Positions 13,343-25,299 of a stretch of DNA of 64,000 nt are shown piece after piece. Numbering within the stretch: the first letter of the stretch is position 1; every line of letters begins with the position of its first letter. A program made the position numbers and the translations under genes. Under the pieces are notes generated by a model. That model did no database searches. It saw only the letters and a program-made list of their open reading frames with translations, and was not told the origin of the DNA. The stretch is taken from NCBI GenBank assembly GCA_024708885.1, contig JANJXT010000035.1, forward strand, positions 1-64,000, given 5' to 3'. Source of the DNA: Thiobacillus sp. (GTDB lineage Bacteria > Pseudomonadota > Gammaproteobacteria > Burkholderiales > Thiobacillaceae).

Positions 13343-14434
13343 TTACTCGGCGACGCCGATCTGGTCGGTGTGCGCCGCGTGTGTCTTCTTGTGTTCGTGG
13401 ATGCCCTTGAACAGCGCGGACAGCACCGTCCATGCACCGACGATCAGCGCCAGCGCAAGCACGCCGTCACCGACCAGCTTCAGCATCTTGACCGTCGATT
13501 CCTGCATCGGCGCGATCAGGCCGAGGTGCGAGAGGTAGCCGGGGATGTAGAAGAAGCGCGAGAACAGCACCGTCAGCATGATGACCGCCATGGTGAACTT
13601 GACCTGGTAGTCCTTCACGTACGTCGTGCCGATGGCGCCGACCTGGATGCCGAACAGCGAGCCCAGGAGGATCAGCATCGCCAGGCGGATGTCGACCACG
13701 CCTTCGAGGCCGTAGAAGATCGTGCCGCCCAGGCCCATGATGAAGGCGATGACGAGTTCGGTGGCCGAGGCCATGATCGCCGGCACGCCGAGAATGTAGA
13801 TCATCGCCGGCACGCCGATGAAGCCGCCGACCGCGATCGCCGAGGCGAGGAAGCCGGTGGCGAAGCCGATCGGCACCAGGAACAGGATCGACACCCGCGC
13901 CTGCGCAGCCTTGGAGTAGATCATGGTGCCGGGGATGTTCACCGACTGCACCCAGCGCGCCAAGCGGGTGATCGGTGCGGCCTGCTCGCTGCCGTCGCCC
14001 GCATCGTCGAGCGCCTTCAGCTTCCTGTAGTCCTTCAGCACGAAGCCGCCGACGATGGCCAGCGTGACGACGAACATGGCGGACACATAGAGGTCGGTGC
14101 CGACCGCGCCGAAGGCGTTCTTGATATCGGTCATCACGTGCTTGCCGAACAGCACGCCGGCTTCGGCGAACAGGCCGAGGATCAGACCGAGCTTGACGTC
14201 GACCTGGCCGTATTTGTTGCGCTTGACCGCGCCGACCAGCGCCTTCGGAAACTTGTGGCAGATGTTGGAGGCCACCGCGACGATGCCGGGCGCGCCGAGC
14301 GTCATCATGGCGGGCGTCAGCACGAAGGCGCCGCCCGAGCCGATGAAGCCGGACACCATGCCGCCGACGAAGCCGACCAGGATCAACAGGATCGCGGTCA
14401 GGGGAGTGATTTCGATGAAATTGATGAGTTCCAT
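13343..14434 (-). CDS. TauE/SafE (TSUP) family anion exporter
   Basis: A 363-residue polytopic membrane protein with the two repeated TSUP halves: GFVGGMVSGFIGSGGAFVLTP near the N-terminus and GFLASAIAVGGFIGVPAMIY in the second half. Members move sulfite, sulfoacetate or other small anions. About eight membrane helices and a charged cytosolic loop (KDYRKLKALDDAGDGSEQ) are visible. It is the last gene of a four-gene minus-strand operon with a 2-TM protein, a USP-like protein and a 64-residue ORF. The operon has a sigma-54-like promoter. In a sulfur oxidiser, export of sulfite or sulfate is plausible but not proven. Confidence 0.87.
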   Translation of the reverse strand: MELINFIEITPLTAILLILVGFVGGMVSGFIGSGGAFVLTPAMMTLGAPGIVAVASNICHKFPKALVGAVKRNKYGQVDVKLGLILGLFAEAGVLFGKHVMTDIKNAFGAVGTDLYVSAMFVVTLAIVGGFVLKDYRKLKALDDAGDGSEQAAPITRLARWVQSVNIPGTMIYSKAAQARVSILFLVPIGFATGFLASAIAVGGFIGVPAMIYILGVPAIMASATELVIAFIMGLGGTIFYGLEGVVDIRLAMLILLGSLFGIQVGAIGTTYVKDYQVKFTMAVIMLTVLFSRFFYIPGYLSHLGLIAPMQESTVKMLKLVGDGVLALALIVGAWTVLSALFKGIHEHKKTHAAHTDQIGVAE

Positions 14435-14461: not shown

Positions 14462-14776
14462 TTACTTCCTGGCCTTCAGGCCGACGATGTCCCAGAACAG
14501 GCCGGTGAACGTGCCGTGCGTGTAGGACAGCGCGAAGGCCATGGCGATGGGGGCGAACACGTACCACCACACGCCGTTGATGAAGGTGCCGCCCTCGGCT
14601 GCACAGAGCTCGGGCGTGGCCTTGTTGTAGTAGTCGCTGCCGGCCACGCAGGCATCCAGCGTGGTGTGCGCCAGCACCTGAAACGCGTCGGCGTACCGGA
14701 ACAGCAGCCAGTACAGCGCGAAGGTGATGCCGCCCCAGAGGAGGGCGGGACCGAGTTTGGAGATGTCTTTGATCAT
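14462..14776 (-). CDS. Small two-helix membrane protein with two periplasmic-loop cysteines
   Basis: A 104-residue protein of unknown family. Helix 1 is LLWGGITFALYWLLFRYA, helix 2 is WWYVFAPIAMAFALSY. The loop between them (TLDACVAGSDYYNKATPELC) carries two cysteines that could form a disulfide. It is flanked in the operon by the exporter (27-bp gap) and the USP-like gene (31-bp gap). The setting suggests an accessory subunit of the exporter. No function is known to me. Confidence 0.75.
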   Translation of the reverse strand: MIKDISKLGPALLWGGITFALYWLLFRYADAFQVLAHTTLDACVAGSDYYNKATPELCAAEGGTFINGVWWYVFAPIAMAFALSYTHGTFTGLFWDIVGLKARK

Positions 14777-14807: not shown

Positions 14808-15182
14808 TCAGGGTTCGTGGGGCTGGCCGGGCGAATCCGATGCGGCGACGAGCGGGCATTCCAGGCGCGTCCAGTGGTCGGCGCCGTGCTCGCCCGACCA
14901 CGCGCCGGGGCGCCCCACGACGACGGAAACGATGCCTTCGTGGCCGCGCGCGTAGTCGACGACCTGGCGGATCTCGAGTCCGGGCATCGGCGTCAGGCGG
15001 CAGCCGAGGCCGCCGCGCGACAGTTCGGTCAGGCGGGTGACGATGTCCACCCAGCGCGGATGGTCGGGGTCGGCCAGCACTTCGAGATCGGCGTCCATGC
15101 GCCGCGCGAGCGCCGCCCCCGCCCCGAACAGGCGTTCGACGGGAGAGACGGGGCGCAGGGCCAGCAGGACGCGGCGGGACAT
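14808..15182 (-). CDS. Small universal-stress-like protein of the exporter operon
   Basis: A 124-residue protein whose start (MSRRVLLALRPVSPVERLFGAGAALARRMDADLEVL) has the alternating beta-alpha pattern of USP domains. The later VSVVVGRPGAW corresponds to the strand before the nucleotide loop, but the full G-x2-G-x9-G(S/T) ATP motif is not evident. So it is probably of the non-ATP-binding kind. Its ATG overlaps the stop of the upstream 64-residue ORF (ATGA). Two other USP-like genes (20841 and 25292) accompany SulP transporters, which suggests a shared regulatory role beside anion carriers. Confidence 0.65.
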   Translation of the reverse strand: MSRRVLLALRPVSPVERLFGAGAALARRMDADLEVLADPDHPRWVDIVTRLTELSRGGLGCRLTPMPGLEIRQVVDYARGHEGIVSVVVGRPGAWSGEHGADHWTRLECPLVAASDSPGQPHEP

Positions 15183-15376
15183 CAGGCCGGCTCGGCGAAC
15201 GGCGCCACGGCGAGCGCTTCGCCGGCCGCGTCGCGGCTGGCTTGCCGCTGCGCCGCGTGGCGCGGTTCGTGGGCGGGCAAGGTCCAGCCCAGGCCGGCGG
15301 CGGATTGCAGGCGCTCTTCCAGATAGGTCTGGTGCGGCGTGCGCGGGGTGAGAACCGTGATTTCAAGTTTTGACAT
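15182..15376 (-). CDS. 64-residue protein, first gene of the exporter operon
   Basis: A short soluble ORF, MSKLEITVLTPRTPHQTYLEERLQSAA and on, of unknown family. It is supported by its position: it begins 27 bp after a predicted sigma-54 start site and is translationally coupled to the USP-like gene (overlapping ATGA). Its start codon overlaps the first of four TTGAC repeats. The C-terminal half is alanine-rich and low in complexity. Confidence 0.6.
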   Translation of the reverse strand: MSKLEITVLTPRTPHQTYLEERLQSAAGLGWTLPAHEPRHAAQRQASRDAAGEALAVAPFAEPA

Positions 15377-15407
15377 GACGTTGACTCGCTTTTGACAGAA
15401 CGTTGAC
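15370..15407 (+). promoter_or_regulatory. Four TTGAC direct repeats with exact 11-bp period
   Basis: TTGAC begins at 15370, 15381, 15392 and 15403. One DNA turn separates each pair, as in sites of OmpR/PhoB-type regulators. The same words with the same period lie upstream of the OmpR-type regulator gene (21381) and of SulP-3 (23388-23436). Here they lie between the sigma-54 start site and the first codon of the minus-strand operon, where a bound protein would more likely block than activate. They read toward the kinase gene at 15530. Confidence 0.68.
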
Positions 15408-15493: not shown

Positions 15494-15511
15494 TTGTTAC
15501 ATTTTGCAACG
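15494..15511. promoter_or_regulatory. Candidate enhancer site for the NtrC-type regulator
   Basis: TTGTTACATTTTGCAACG is an imperfect palindrome about 100 bp upstream of the predicted sigma-54 start, a usual place for an enhancer. The reverse complement of 18526-18543, upstream of SulP-2, reads TTGTTTCATAATGCAACA and matches at 14 of 18 positions. It also lies just before the kinase gene. Confidence 0.5.
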
Positions 15512-15529
15512 ACGGGTTAGACTGCAACG

Positions 15530-16978
15530 ATGCACTCGCTCCAGGCCAAGATCGCCCTTGCCTACCTCTCGCTCGCAGCGCTGGTCGTCGGCCTGTCGGC
15601 CGTGGCGCTGTTCGAGCTCGCGCGCATCGAGGCCAAGGTGAACGAGGGCGGCAAGGTCACGGAGCTGTTCGATGCGGCACTGGAGATGCGGCGCTTCGAG
15701 AAGAACTACTTTCTGTATGCGCAGCCCTCCGATCTGGAGGAGCATGGCCGTTTCGTCGCGCGCCTGCGCGAGCTCGCCGAGCGTGACGCAGCCGTGATCG
15801 ACGCCGTCGCGGCGCCGGGCGCGGCGGCGCAATGGGTCGATGCGCTGTCGAGCTATGCGGTCGCGATGGACGCGTACGTGCAGGCGCCGCTCGACGAGGC
15901 CCTCGCGGCGGCGGTGCGCCGCGACGGCTACCGCATCGTCACGCTCGGCGAGCACCTCGCCCAGCGCGAGCGCCGCTCGGTCGACCTCGCGCTGCGCAAG
16001 CACCGGCAGAATTTCAAGTATTTCCTGGTGGCGGTGGCGACCATCCTGGTGCTGACCGGATTCTTTCTCGCGCGCCTCGTCACGCGTCCGCTCAAGGCCA
16101 TGGAGGAGCACATGGAAGCGGTGGCGAGCGGACGGCTGAAGCGGCTGGAGCCGGACAGCCGCGACCGTGAATTCGTTTCCCTCACGGAGGCCTTCAACCA
16201 TGTGCTCGAGGAGCTGGAACGCCGCCAGCACACCCTGGTGCGCTCGGAAAAGCTGGCCTCGCTCGGCACGCTGCTTTCTGGCGTCGCGCACGAACTCAAC
16301 AATCCGCTGTCCAACATTTCATCGTCGGCGCAGATCCTGCGCGAGGATCCCGACCTCGACGCGGGCCTGCGCACCGAGCTGATCGGCGACATCGACGACG
16401 AAACCCTGCGCGCGCGGCACATCGTTCGCGCCCTGCTCGACTATTCGGGCGACCGTGAATTCCGGCCCGCCCCGCTTGCGCTTCCCGAGCTGGTCGAGGA
16501 GACGCTGCGCTTTCTCAAGAACAAGCGCCCGACGGCGGTCGAGGTGCGGGTCGACATCACGCCCGGCCTTGCCATCGTCGCCGACCGCCCGCGCCTGCAG
16601 CAGGTGCTCCTCAACCTCATCCTCAACGCCTACGATGCCATGGGCAGCGCGGGCGTACTGGAAATTTCGGCGCGCCGGCTGAAAACCGGCGAGCGCGACG
16701 ACGATTTTCCCGCGGCGCTCGATGGCTGCCGTGCAGGCGTGCCGGTTGTCGAGATCGAGATCGCCGACGATGGCCCGGGCATTCCGCCGGAGCTCCTCGA
16801 GCGCGTGTTCGACCCCTTCGTGACCACCAAGCCGGTGGGGCATGGCAGTGGACTGGGGCTGTTCGTTGCCTTTGAAATCATCGAAAAACACGGCGGCTGC
16901 ATGGCCGCCGACAACCGGCCCGGCGGCGGGGCGCGTTTTCGCATCCGCCTGCCGGCCGAGCGGAAAGACCTGCCATGA
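15530..16978 (+). CDS. NtrB-type membrane sensor histidine kinase
   Basis: A 482-residue kinase. An N-terminal membrane helix (residues ~7-28) and a second (YFLVAVATILVLTGFFLARLV, ~163-183) bracket a periplasmic helical sensor of about 130 residues. A HAMP segment, the phospho-acceptor site VAHELNNPLSNISSS (His about 254) and a HATPase domain with NLILNAYDAM, DDGPGIPPE and GHGSGLGLF follow. The HELNNPL type usually pairs with NtrC-family regulators, and such a gene lies next, separated by a ~145-bp repeat. The helical sensor resembles those for small ligands. The ligand is unknown; an anion or redox cue is suggested by the neighbours. Confidence 0.87.
   Translation: MHSLQAKIALAYLSLAALVVGLSAVALFELARIEAKVNEGGKVTELFDAALEMRRFEKNYFLYAQPSDLEEHGRFVARLRELAERDAAVIDAVAAPGAAAQWVDALSSYAVAMDAYVQAPLDEALAAAVRRDGYRIVTLGEHLAQRERRSVDLALRKHRQNFKYFLVAVATILVLTGFFLARLVTRPLKAMEEHMEAVASGRLKRLEPDSRDREFVSLTEAFNHVLEELERRQHTLVRSEKLASLGTLLSGVAHELNNPLSNISSSAQILREDPDLDAGLRTELIGDIDDETLRARHIVRALLDYSGDREFRPAPLALPELVEETLRFLKNKRPTAVEVRVDITPGLAIVADRPRLQQVLLNLILNAYDAMGSAGVLEISARRLKTGERDDDFPAALDGCRAGVPVVEIEIADDGPGIPPELLERVFDPFVTTKPVGHGSGLGLFVAFEIIEKHGGCMAADNRPGGGARFRIRLPAERKDLP

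Positions 16979-17138: not shown

Positions 17139-17140
<2 letters not shown>
16993..17140. repeat. Full copy of the CACAGAG-ended repeat element (copy R2)
   Basis: It runs from ATTGAACCCCAGAGACACGG to CTGTGGTGGGGAATGCAGGA and separates kinase and regulator genes. The whole ~145 bp aligns with the reverse complement of 38703-38853, including a shared internal core (CTCACCCGATGG, CGGGTTTCTCTGTG) and the final GGAATGCAGGAT. The start codon of the regulator lies in its last bases, so the element provides the translation start context. Confidence 0.83.
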
Positions 17141-18491
<1,351 letters not shown>

Positions 18492-21380: not shown

Positions 21381-21413
21381 TTGACGTTTTCTTGACGGAG
21401 GATGCCCTACACT
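21381..21413 (+). promoter_or_regulatory. TTGACG direct-repeat promoter of the OmpR-type system
   Basis: TTGACG at 21381 and again at 21392 (11-bp period), then exactly 10 bp to a -10 box TACACT (21408-21413). No proper -35 box exists at 17 bp. This is the geometry of PhoB-type activated promoters, in which the second repeat replaces the -35 box. The gene start is at 21445. The most likely protein is the regulator encoded here (autoregulation). Confidence 0.7.
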
Positions 21414-21444: not shown

Positions 21445-22146
21445 ATGACATCGAGCCGTTCCCTGCGCATCCTCGTCATCGAGGACAACCCCGACCTCGC
21501 CGCCAACGTGTGCGACTTTCTCGAGGCCAAGGGCCATGTCGCCGATGTCGCGGGCGACGGCATCACCGGTCTGCACCTGGCGGTGACCCACGACTACGAC
21601 GCCATCGTGCTCGACATCGTGCTGCCGGGCATGGATGGCTTCACGCTGTGCCGCAAGTATCGGGAAGAGGCGCGGCGCAGCACGCCGGTGCTCATGCTCA
21701 CCGCCCGCGATGCGCTCGACGACCGCGTGGCCGGTCTCGAATGCGGGGCCGACGACTATGTGCTCAAGCCCTTCGCGCTGCGCGAACTGGAAGCGCGCCT
21801 GCTGGCGCTGGTGCGCCGCTCGAAAAGCGCGATGACGCCGTCCGCGCTGCGGGTGGGCGACCTGGAATTCGACCCCGCGCTGGTGCGTGCGCGGCGCGGC
21901 ACACGCGTGATCGCGCTCTCGGCCACACCGTTGAAGCTCTTGGACACCCTGATGCGCGCGTCGCCGCGCGTGGTCCGGCGCGAGGAACTGGAACGCGCGG
22001 TATGGGGCGAGGCGCCGCCTGATTCGGACGCGCTGCGCTCGCACATGCACACGCTGCGCGCGGCGGTCGACGGCGCGGATGAGGTGCCCCTGATCCATAC
22101 CGTCCGCGGCATCGGTTACCGCATCGCTGCACCCGATGCGCTTTAG
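21445..22146 (+). CDS. OmpR-family response regulator
   Basis: A 233-residue regulator. The receiver has ILVIEDNPDLAANV, the phospho-acceptor in AIVLDIVLPGMDG and the conserved lysine in VLKPF. The C-terminal winged helix includes LSATPLKLLDTLMRASPRVVRREELERAVWG and the end motif HTVRGIGYRI. Its stop lies inside the following kinase gene (11-bp overlap). TTGACG direct repeats in front of it and of SulP-3 are the best candidates for its binding site. It is distinct from the NtrC-type system 3 kb upstream. Confidence 0.93.
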   Translation: MTSSRSLRILVIEDNPDLAANVCDFLEAKGHVADVAGDGITGLHLAVTHDYDAIVLDIVLPGMDGFTLCRKYREEARRSTPVLMLTARDALDDRVAGLECGADDYVLKPFALRELEARLLALVRRSKSAMTPSALRVGDLEFDPALVRARRGTRVIALSATPLKLLDTLMRASPRVVRREELERAVWGEAPPDSDALRSHMHTLRAAVDGADEVPLIHTVRGIGYRIAAPDAL

Positions 22147-23401
22147 CCGCAGCCTGCGCTTTCGCGTCGCCACCGCGTTTGCCGTCACCGGCGGCATCAT
22201 CAGCCTGGTCGCGGCCTTCGGCCTCTATCTCGGGGTGCGCGACGCCGGCGAGCGTCTCATCGACGAAACGCTGAAGGCGGAAATCCAGGATTACCTCGCG
22301 CGCCGCAGCCGCAATCCGGACTCGCATCCGCCTTCGACCGCCACCCTGCTCGGCTATGCGCTGCCGGGGCGAGCGGGCGAGGCGCCGCCGCCGGACGCCA
22401 TCGCCCGGCTGCCGCCCGGAATGCACGAAATCGGGCTTGACGGCGTGTTCTACCGCGTCGCCATCGCCGAGCGCGATGGCAGCCGTTATTTTCTGCTCTA
22501 CGACGAAACCTATTTCCGCAAGAAGCAGGCCGGCCTCATTCTCTATCTCGCCGTCTTCGTCACGCTGATGACGCTGCTTTCCGGGGCCCTGGCGCTGTGG
22601 CTCGCCGAGCGCGTGATCGAGCCGGTGAAGGAACTGGCGCGGCGGGTGCGCAGCGTGCGGCCGGACGCCCACCCCGAACCGCTCACCGAGGATTTTCCCC
22701 ACGACGAGGTGGGCGAGCTGGCGCATGCCTTCGAACAGGCGTTCGAGCGGCTGGCAAGCTTCATCGACCGCGAGCGCGCCTTCACCGCCGACGTCTCGCA
22801 CGAACTGCGCACGCCCATCGCGGTGATCCGCGGCGCGGCGGAGGTGCTGCTCGCCGATGCCGCGCGCCCGCAAAAGGACCGCCAGCGCATCGAGCGCATC
22901 GAGCGCGGCGCGGCCGACATGGCCGACCTGTCGACCGCGCTTCTGGCCATGGCGCGCGAGCGCGACGACGAGCGGCGCGAGCCGGTCGATCTGGCCGCGC
23001 TCGTCGAGGCATCGGTCGACAAGCATCGGCATCTGCTGGGCACGCGGCCGGTGGACGTGATCCTTGAATTCGACGCGCAGCCGCGCGTTGCCGCCGACGC
23101 GAACCTGCTTGCGATCGTCGTCGCCAACCTGCTGCGCAACAGCTTCACCTATACCGAGCGCGGCAGCGTGAAGATCCGCCTCGCCGCCGGCACGCTCGCC
23201 ATCGAGGATACCGGTCTCGGCATTCCGCGCGAGGCGCTCGGCAAGGTATTTCAGCGCCTCTACAAGGGCGCGCACAGCGAGGGCGCGGGCATCGGCCTGT
23301 CGCTGGTGAAGAAGATCTGCGAGCGGTACGGCTGGTCGGTCGCGCTCGACAGCACGGAGGGGCAGGGCACCCGCGCGGTACTGAAATTTGACGGCGTTTG
23401 A
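22136..23401 (+). CDS. Sensor histidine kinase of the OmpR-type system
   Basis: A 421-residue kinase with two membrane helices (about residues 12-33 and 138-160) around a ~100-residue periplasmic sensor. A HAMP segment, the site FTADVSHELRTPIAVI (His about 222) and a HATPase domain with NLLRNSFTYTERG, IEDTGLGIP and GAGIGLSL follow. It overlaps the regulator gene by 11 bp, so both are made together. The sensor part has no motif I recognise. The next gene, SulP-3, has its own repeat-type promoter inside and after the end of this gene. Confidence 0.9.
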   Translation: MRFSRSLRFRVATAFAVTGGIISLVAAFGLYLGVRDAGERLIDETLKAEIQDYLARRSRNPDSHPPSTATLLGYALPGRAGEAPPPDAIARLPPGMHEIGLDGVFYRVAIAERDGSRYFLLYDETYFRKKQAGLILYLAVFVTLMTLLSGALALWLAERVIEPVKELARRVRSVRPDAHPEPLTEDFPHDEVGELAHAFEQAFERLASFIDRERAFTADVSHELRTPIAVIRGAAEVLLADAARPQKDRQRIERIERGAADMADLSTALLAMARERDDERREPVDLAALVEASVDKHRHLLGTRPVDVILEFDAQPRVAADANLLAIVVANLLRNSFTYTERGSVKIRLAAGTLAIEDTGLGIPREALGKVFQRLYKGAHSEGAGIGLSLVKKICERYGWSVALDSTEGQGTRAVLKFDGV

Positions 23402-23452
23402 CGCGTTCATCACGCGCGCTTGACGTGCCCGTGACGCGGGTCGGGATATATA
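23388..23452 (+). promoter_or_regulatory. TTGACG repeat ladder and promoter of SulP-3
   Basis: TTGACG at 23388 and 23398, a weak ATCACG at 23409, TTGACG at 23420 and GTGACG at 23431. The last four are in 11-bp phase. Exactly 10 bp after the last repeat comes the -10 box TATATA (23447-23452). The layout is the same as at 21381-21413, so the same regulator is expected to activate SulP-3. The start codon is at 23473. Confidence 0.72.
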
Positions 23453-23472: not shown

Positions 23473-25299
23473 ATGCGATCCGCGATGTCTTTGCCCGCCT
23501 CTCCTGCCCTGCCTGTCTGGCTCAGGCCATTCACCGCATTCCTCCTGTGGTGGCCGCGCGTCAATCGCGCCACCGTGCGGGTCGACGCCATGGCGGGTCT
23601 CACCGGCGCGCTGGTCGCGTTGCCGCAGGGGGTGGCGTTTGCGACCATCGCCGGCATGCCGCCCGAATACGGGCTCTACGCCGGCATGGTGCCGGCGATC
23701 GTCGCCGCCTTGTTCGGATCCAGCTGGCACCTCGTGTCGGGGCCGACCACCGCGGCGTCGATCGTGCTGTTCTCGGTGCTCGCGCCGCACGCCGAACCGG
23801 GCAGCGCCGAGTACGTGCGGCTGGCGCTGACGCTGACCTTCATGGTCGGTGCGATCCAGCTCGTCATGGGGCTCGCCAAGCTCGGCACCCTGGTGAACTT
23901 CATCTCCCATTCGGTGGTGACCGGCTTCACCGCCGGCGCGGCCATTCTCATCGCCACCAACCAGGTCAAGCATTTCACCGGCCAGGCGATCCCGCGCGGG
24001 GCGTCGTTCGCCGACACCTGGACGCACGCCTTCACGCGCATGGATGAAATCAATGCCGCGATCGTCGCCACCGGCCTCTTCACGCTGCTGCTCGGCATCG
24101 CGGTCAAGCGCTGGCTGCCGAAGCTGCCCTACATGATCGTGGCCATGCTGGGCGGCGCGATCGCCGGCGCCGTGCTCGCCGCCTGGTTCGGCGTTGCGCT
24201 CCCAACTGTCGGGGCGCTGCCCGCGAGCCTGCCGCCGCTGTCGATGCCGGCATTCGACGCGGAGAGCATCCGCGCGGTCGCCTCGGGCGTGATCGCCGTC
24301 ACCTTGCTGGCGCTGACCGAGGCGGTATCCATTGCGCGGGCGCTTGCCGCGCGCTCCGGCCAGCACGTCGACGGCAACCAGGAATTCGTCGGGCAGGGTC
24401 TGTCCAACATCGCCGGCGCGTTCTTCTCCGGCTACGTCGCCACCGGTTCGTTCAACCGCAGCGGCGTCAACTATGCAGCCGGCGCGAAGACACCGGTGGC
24501 GGCCATGCTGGCGGGGGTGTTCCTGCTGGTGCTGGTGCTGTTCGTCGCCCCCTGGGCGCAATACCTGCCGAACGCCGCGATGGCGGGCATTCTCTTCCTG
24601 GTCGCGTGGGGCCTGATCGACTTCGACGAGATCGCCCATACCATCCGGAGCAGCCGCCAGGAAACCGCGATCATGGCCGCCACCTTCGCGGCGACGCTCT
24701 TCCTTACCCTGGAGGAGGCCATCATCATCGGCGTGCTGGCTTCGCTGGCGATCTACCTGTCGCGCACCTCCAAACCGCAGGTGCGGGTGCGCGCCCCCGA
24801 CCCGCACCACACGAAGCGCCATTTCACCGACGCCCAGAATGCGCCGCAATGTCCGCAGCTGCGCTTCGTGCGCATCGACGGCTCGCTGTTCTTTGGCGCC
24901 ACCTCGCACATCCGCGAAGCGCTCGCGCAGCAGGATCAGCACGCGCCCGGCCAGAAGCACGTCGCGGTGGTCGCGCATGCGATCAACTTTGTCGACCTCG
25001 CCGGCGCCCACTATCTTGCCGAGGAAGCCGAGCGCCGGCGCAGCGAGGGCGGCGGCCTGTACTTCATCCGCGTGAAGGACACGGTGCAGGAACAGCTCGC
25101 GGAGAGCGGCGCGTTGAAACACATCGGTGGCGTCAACATCTTCGATTCCAAGACCGAGGCGATTGCCGCGATCCACAAGCGGCTCGATCCCGCCGTATGC
25201 CGCACCTGCCAGGCGCGCATCTTCCGCGAGTGCCAGGGCGGCAGCGTGGCGCAAGCGCATGTTTCCGATGTCCTCTTGAGGCCCCTGTCCCATGCCTGA
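23473..25299 (+). CDS. SulP/SLC26 transporter with STAS domain and cysteine tail (SulP-3)
   Basis: A 608-residue SulP protein. Motifs include GMPPEYGLYAGMVPAIVAALFGSS, SHSVVTGFTAGAAILIATNQ and DGNQEFVGQGLSNIAGAFFSGY, followed by a STAS domain (about 455-560). The last 35 residues carry a cysteine cluster, CRTCQARIFREC (C576, C579, C587), that could bind metal or sense redox state. Expression is probably under the OmpR-type system. Its stop overlaps the ATG of the USP-like gene, so transporter and USP partner are translationally coupled. It lacks the coiled-coil insert of SulP-2. The substrate (sulfate, bicarbonate or other) is open. Confidence 0.88.
   Translation: MRSAMSLPASPALPVWLRPFTAFLLWWPRVNRATVRVDAMAGLTGALVALPQGVAFATIAGMPPEYGLYAGMVPAIVAALFGSSWHLVSGPTTAASIVLFSVLAPHAEPGSAEYVRLALTLTFMVGAIQLVMGLAKLGTLVNFISHSVVTGFTAGAAILIATNQVKHFTGQAIPRGASFADTWTHAFTRMDEINAAIVATGLFTLLLGIAVKRWLPKLPYMIVAMLGGAIAGAVLAAWFGVALPTVGALPASLPPLSMPAFDAESIRAVASGVIAVTLLALTEAVSIARALAARSGQHVDGNQEFVGQGLSNIAGAFFSGYVATGSFNRSGVNYAAGAKTPVAAMLAGVFLLVLVLFVAPWAQYLPNAAMAGILFLVAWGLIDFDEIAHTIRSSRQETAIMAATFAATLFLTLEEAIIIGVLASLAIYLSRTSKPQVRVRAPDPHHTKRHFTDAQNAPQCPQLRFVRIDGSLFFGATSHIREALAQQDQHAPGQKHVAVVAHAINFVDLAGAHYLAEEAERRRSEGGGLYFIRVKDTVQEQLAESGALKHIGGVNIFDSKTEAIAAIHKRLDPAVCRTCQARIFRECQGGSVAQAHVSDVLLRPLSHA

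Follow-up and report, generated by a model that had tools for sequence, protein, structure and literature searches.

The window analysed here, a 64,000-nucleotide stretch of Thiobacillus sp. DNA, carries four TTGAC half-sites in exact 11-bp phase across the start of an operon for a TSUP (TauE/SafE) transporter, and comparative evidence strongly supports this array as the operator of the OmpR/PhoB-type response regulator encoded at 21445. From the sequence, conservation, geometry and co-occurrence of the array we infer that the 21445 protein binds it, as well as the sign of the regulation. The whole model, in which the regulator occupies this operator, blocks the TSUP operon and activates its own gene and SulP-3, is one that we hold with moderate confidence.

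A phased TTGAC array at the start of the TSUP operon

The array and the operon that it overlaps consist of the following features:

15370..15407, + strand, candidate operator of four TTGAC half-sites in 11-bp phase, across the predicted +1 and leader of the TSUP operon and antisense to the operon
15431-15416, - strand, sigma-54 -24/-12 element TGGCACGCAACCTGCT, the only perfect match in the window and conserved in relatives
15183..15376, - strand, orf64, first gene of the operon with a 64-aa product, its ATG overlapping half-site 1
14808..15182, - strand, 124-aa protein with a likeness by eye to universal stress proteins and no Pfam match
14462..14776, - strand, 104-aa small protein, probably of the membrane, accompanying TSUP
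13343..14434, - strand, TSUP (TauE/SafE) transporter, Pfam TauE at 1.8e-35 over residues 17-289

The initial annotation had placed TTGAC copies in exact 11-bp phase at 15370, 15381, 15392 and 15403 of the + strand, and the sequence confirms every one of these positions. The 64-kb window has 85 TTGAC words, and the expected number of four-copy arrays with an 11-bp phase is 2.5e-8. When any 5-mer and any period from 9 to 13 were allowed, 60 simulated 64-kb sequences contained one array in total, and the array at 15370 was the sole one in the actual window. It was also the single match in the 2.56-Mb genome to three phased TTGAC copies with at most one mismatch. Four phased copies with at most three mismatches were found genome-wide at only one other place, 23398, before SulP-3; a matrix built from the sites of other genomes gave 15370 the top rank in the window and 23398 the next. 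Across five genomes the half-sites were less variable than the spacers, but only by 3 of 20 columns versus 8 of 18 (p about 0.05). With four head-to-tail TTGAC copies at 11 bp, the array has the form of a direct-repeat operator of the OmpR/PhoB type, in which half-sites follow each other at 10-11 bp. A scan of the genome with TTGAC-N6-TTGAC for a wider regulon gave only two further places (C43 and C44), neither with clear target genes, and these matches were about equal in number to those of a reversed-pattern control.

Because the -24/-12 element lies at 15431-15416, transcription is predicted to start near 15405, and therefore copy 4 (15403-15407) straddles the start site. Relative to this predicted +1 the array extends from about -2 to +36 and reaches into the start codon, copy 1 (15370-15374) beginning inside the ATG at 15376-15374. 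The placing of the whole array between transcription start and start codon consequently holds for copies 2 and 3 and needs correcting for copies 1 and 4. The start and sequence of orf64 are conserved at 64-84% in four other Thiobacillus genomes (L003-L006), and its predicted leader has no clear Shine-Dalgarno sequence. On the same strand, 3' of the operon, are genes for a gamma-carbonic-anhydrase-like hexapeptide protein and then SulP-1. Farther beyond lie the RuBisCO large subunit, CbbQ and a VWA-domain protein, which we take to be CbbO from its position and general knowledge.

A divergent kinase/NtrC module beside the sigma-54 promoter

The promoter combines a GG-N10-GC element with a nearby NtrC-type activator that contains GAFTGA, as NtrC/sigma-54 promoters do. 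The module on the other side of the intergenic region comprises:

15497..15509, + strand, likely NtrC-type enhancer TTACATTTTGCAA (consensus TTGCAN3TGCAA), centred near -98
15530..16978, + strand, sensor histidine kinase of an NtrC-type system, divergent from the TSUP operon
17139..18491, + strand, NtrC-family response regulator that contains GAFTGA and presumably activates the sigma-54 promoter

The + strand then continues, so that the full order is histidine kinase, NtrC-family regulator, SulP-2, Usp, OmpR/PhoB-type regulator, HK2, SulP-3 and another Usp. Among named sequences, those closest to the 15530 kinase come from Thiobacillus assemblies, which places the genome with Thiobacillus. An enhancer match of at least 9 of 10 precedes the kinase in 64 of 70 related loci, a match that in the window alone is not above chance, and in 40 of the 70 loci having a homologous kinase a sigma-54 element scores 10 or more. 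The TTGAC array is not part of the general kinase/NtrC module. We found no name for a kinase/NtrC module preceding TSUP or SulP.

Several further observations concern this module. With its TTGCAN3TGCAA enhancer and sigma-54 promoter, the module (homologues in L003-L082) is placed divergently ahead of TSUP or SulP in Thiobacillus, Sulfuricella-like bacteria, Nitrospirae, Beggiatoa relatives and Desulfobacterota. Just downstream of the presumed enhancer, a TTAGACT (within 15497-15523 of the window) may be the -10 of the kinase gene; an enhancer so placed would suggest autoregulation of the kinase/NtrC pair. Elsewhere in the window, at 332-402, several TTGCAA- or TTTCAA-like words are closely spaced, including a perfect TTGCAACTTGCAA.

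The same half-sites at the regulator gene and at SulP-3

The second two-component system and its neighbourhood contain two more sites of the same kind:

21381..21396, + strand, two TTGAC half-sites before the regulator gene, 11 bp ahead of TACACT
21445..22146, + strand, OmpR/PhoB-type response regulator, the candidate for binding the array; Pfam Response_reg and Trans_reg_C
22136..23401, + strand, HK2, sensor kinase partner of the 21445 regulator
23398..23435, + strand, four half-sites (TTGAC, ATCAC, TTGAC, GTGAC) in 11-bp phase, 11 bp ahead of TATATA, at the SulP-3 promoter
23473..25299, + strand, SulP-3 anion transporter, a proposed activation target of the regulator; Pfam Sulfate_transp and STAS

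At both SulP-3 and the 21445 gene the site ends 11 bp before the -10, which is the geometry of a class II activator site. No TTGAC copy at either promoter has the spacing of a sigma-70 -35, and so both promoters look activator-dependent. The regulator thus has the same site at its own promoter, in the box at 21381 and also in orthologues. Orthologues with at least 72% identity occur in about 23 genomes of the family. In all 16 readable promoters of the regulator gene, from two genera, two half-sites end exactly 11 bp before TA(A/C/G)ACT, and where SulP-3 lies behind HK2, most genomes with an orthologue have four phased half-sites that stop 11 bp short of a TATA-like box. Judged by sequence, the sites at SulP-3 and at the regulator gene are of PhoB/PhoP-type activator geometry, conserved in related genomes.

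The array accompanies the regulator across genomes

We searched 117 genomes for the four-copy pattern with at most two mismatches. All 12 places found lie at SulP-3 or at the start of the TSUP operon, one SulP-3 being assigned only by its position behind HK2. At the TSUP operon the array is kept at 18-19 of 20 positions in L003-L006; in a genome of another genus (G116, locus L089) it is weaker (16 of 20) and shifted by 1 bp. All of these genomes carry the regulator. Other relatives of the module score at most 14, at other places, and the array is absent where there is no close regulator. Among other genera with regulators of 73-77% identity, no clear TSUP site was found in G021 and G023; G028 is weak here, and in G051 the place falls at a contig edge. 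The assignment of the array to the OmpR-type regulator of 21445, already proposed in the initial annotation, is well supported by the recurrence of the motif ahead of SulP-3 and ahead of the regulator gene itself, together with this co-occurrence. Separately, a degenerate array of four half-sites (L175, G109:C51:43825-43862) precedes another SulP, 57% identical to SulP-3 and next to a CamH-like gene, and possibly marks a related regulon.

A second arrangement was found in G053, G093, G074, G089 and others. Here the kinase/NtrC/SulP-2 block is missing, and the regulator gene has the 104-aa gene and TSUP as its immediate divergent neighbours. The two-half-site box of the regulator overlaps TGTTAA(A/T/G)AT facing TSUP in all nine divergent genomes, and in G071, versus none of seven genomes with TSUP at another place. 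We regard TGTTAAAAT, facing TSUP, as a putative extended -10 of a predicted promoter. The second half-site in the divergent genomes is TTAAC, not TTGAC, the change one would expect of a half-site that doubles as part of a -10. Overall, half-sites lie antisense over the TSUP start in 15 of 15 genomes, from two genera, with a close regulator and TSUP (the G071 regulator being partial), a count that, like the other genome counts, overstates the support since the genomes are related and not independent, the regulator tree needing only two changes of arrangement. Two genomes with TSUP and no close regulator (G113 and G078) have no half-sites over the TSUP start. Multiple independent gains of the array were considered and rejected, as the two changes in the tree are compatible with a single origin. 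Where TSUP is divergent from the regulator, L181, L179, L185 and L188 have a G+C-rich hairpin that separates the regulator box from the 104-aa gene, followed by a T run in L181 and L179; in the predicted 104-aa/TSUP leader it is a possible attenuator.

Position and orientation suggest repression of the TSUP operon

The 15370 half-sites face away from the TSUP operon and straddle its predicted +1. For PhoP, a box located downstream of the transcription start is expected to act in repression, and activation is lost when an activating box is turned round (PMC3335776). In none of six genomes is there a -10 box 11 bp beyond the 15370-type array, which argues that it is not an activator site of the class II kind. 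A sigma-70 promoter reading from the array in either direction was ruled out on similar grounds, there being no -10 at the right distance. The presence of half-sites antisense over the TSUP start in two promoter architectures supports TSUP repression together with SulP-3 activation, and the support for this pair of effects is good but indirect. The initial annotation had the 15376-13343 operon and SulP-3 switched in opposite directions: the position and orientation of the array fit repression and the activator geometry stands at SulP-3, while the labels of import and export that went with the proposal were not supported.

The phosphorylated 21445 regulator would probably bind the array as two head-to-tail dimers, at about -2 to +36. 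Bound there, it would block initiation or early elongation at the sigma-54 promoter of orf64-usp-m104-TSUP, that is, the transcription presumably driven by the NtrC-type regulator (17139-18491) from the enhancer near 15497-15509. At its own gene and at SulP-3 the 21445 protein would act as an activator, from half-sites that stop 11 bp short of the -10. Expression of the TSUP operon would then require an active NtrC system together with an inactive OmpR-type system.

Alternative explanations

The array is upstream of the kinase gene, with its half-sites oriented toward that gene, so the regulator might bind the array and activate the divergent HK-NtrC pair (15530 onward) from a distance, raising TSUP indirectly. 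We consider this unlikely: the end of the array is about 110 bp from the presumed kinase -10, versus exactly 11 bp for the sites at SulP-3 and the regulator gene, and genomes with divergent TSUP have no kinase gene beside the box, yet the box covers the TSUP start. The array could also serve a different OmpR-family regulator of the cell. Members of this family often have direct-repeat sites that resemble each other, and the genome encodes at least one other homologue, at 43%. That the motif stands at the promoter of the 21445-type regulator and at SulP-3 of its operon in all close orthologues, and that the array occurs only with the regulator, makes such an exchange decidedly unlikely.

Control of translation by GUCAA repeats around the start codon is conceivable in view of an array that lies in the predicted leader, overlaps the ATG and has no clear Shine-Dalgarno sequence nearby; however, 11 bp is a phase of DNA, and at SulP-3 and the regulator gene the motif is upstream of the -10 and hence not transcribed, leaving an RNA-level site very improbable. 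An array without function is hardly credible. Five-base words do recur, and conservation within the clade is partly shared descent, but the expectation is 2.5e-8 per window, the array is conserved in five other genomes, and the matrix predicted it independently.

Discussion

The opposition of import and export was not supported, TauE/TSUP being a family name. Among the 70 loci, the one divergent slot beside the kinase/NtrC module is taken by TSUP in 35 and by SulP in 24, and this interchange suggests similar rather than opposite roles. The TauE/SafE domain of sulfite exporters is present (1.8e-35), and the interchange with SulP calls for caution over sulfite export; a survey of sulfate reducers considered TSUP function at present not predictable from sequence (PMC5840216). 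The protein may be a sulfite exporter or a bicarbonate transporter, and we favour neither. On the bicarbonate side, the operon has RuBisCO and a gamma-carbonic-anhydrase-like gene in its neighbourhood. On the sulfur side, the relatives of the kinase include many groups known for dissimilatory sulfur metabolism.

The array resembles PhoP/PhoB boxes in its head-to-tail half-sites and 11-bp phase, and the sites at SulP-3 and the regulator gene share their activation in direct orientation from a fixed 11-12 bp upstream of the -10 (PMC3335776). It differs in the half-site, here TTGAC(G), in having four half-sites rather than two at TSUP, and in its sigma-54 target there. With enhancer-dependent NtrC/sigma-54 promoters the TSUP promoter shares the -24/-12 element, the GAFTGA activator and an enhancer about 100 bp upstream; unlike them, it has an array for a second two-component system across the start site. 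Literature word searches, which are a weak test, gave no earlier case of a sigma-54 promoter repressed by an OmpR-type regulator.

Two two-component systems may meet at one promoter, the NtrC-type turning TSUP on and the PhoB-type vetoing it while activating SulP-3, with the veto kept whether the promoter is of the sigma-54 type or has a sigma-70-like extended -10; on this broader proposal our judgement is evenly balanced. The results provide a candidate operator and a small regulon for a transporter-control circuit beside the RuBisCO-CbbQ genes of Thiobacillus. They would show how a transporter operon can stay under one regulator although its type of promoter differs between lineages. They also caution against reading "TauE exporter" as export, since one sigma-54 module appears to drive TSUP or SulP across sulfur bacteria.
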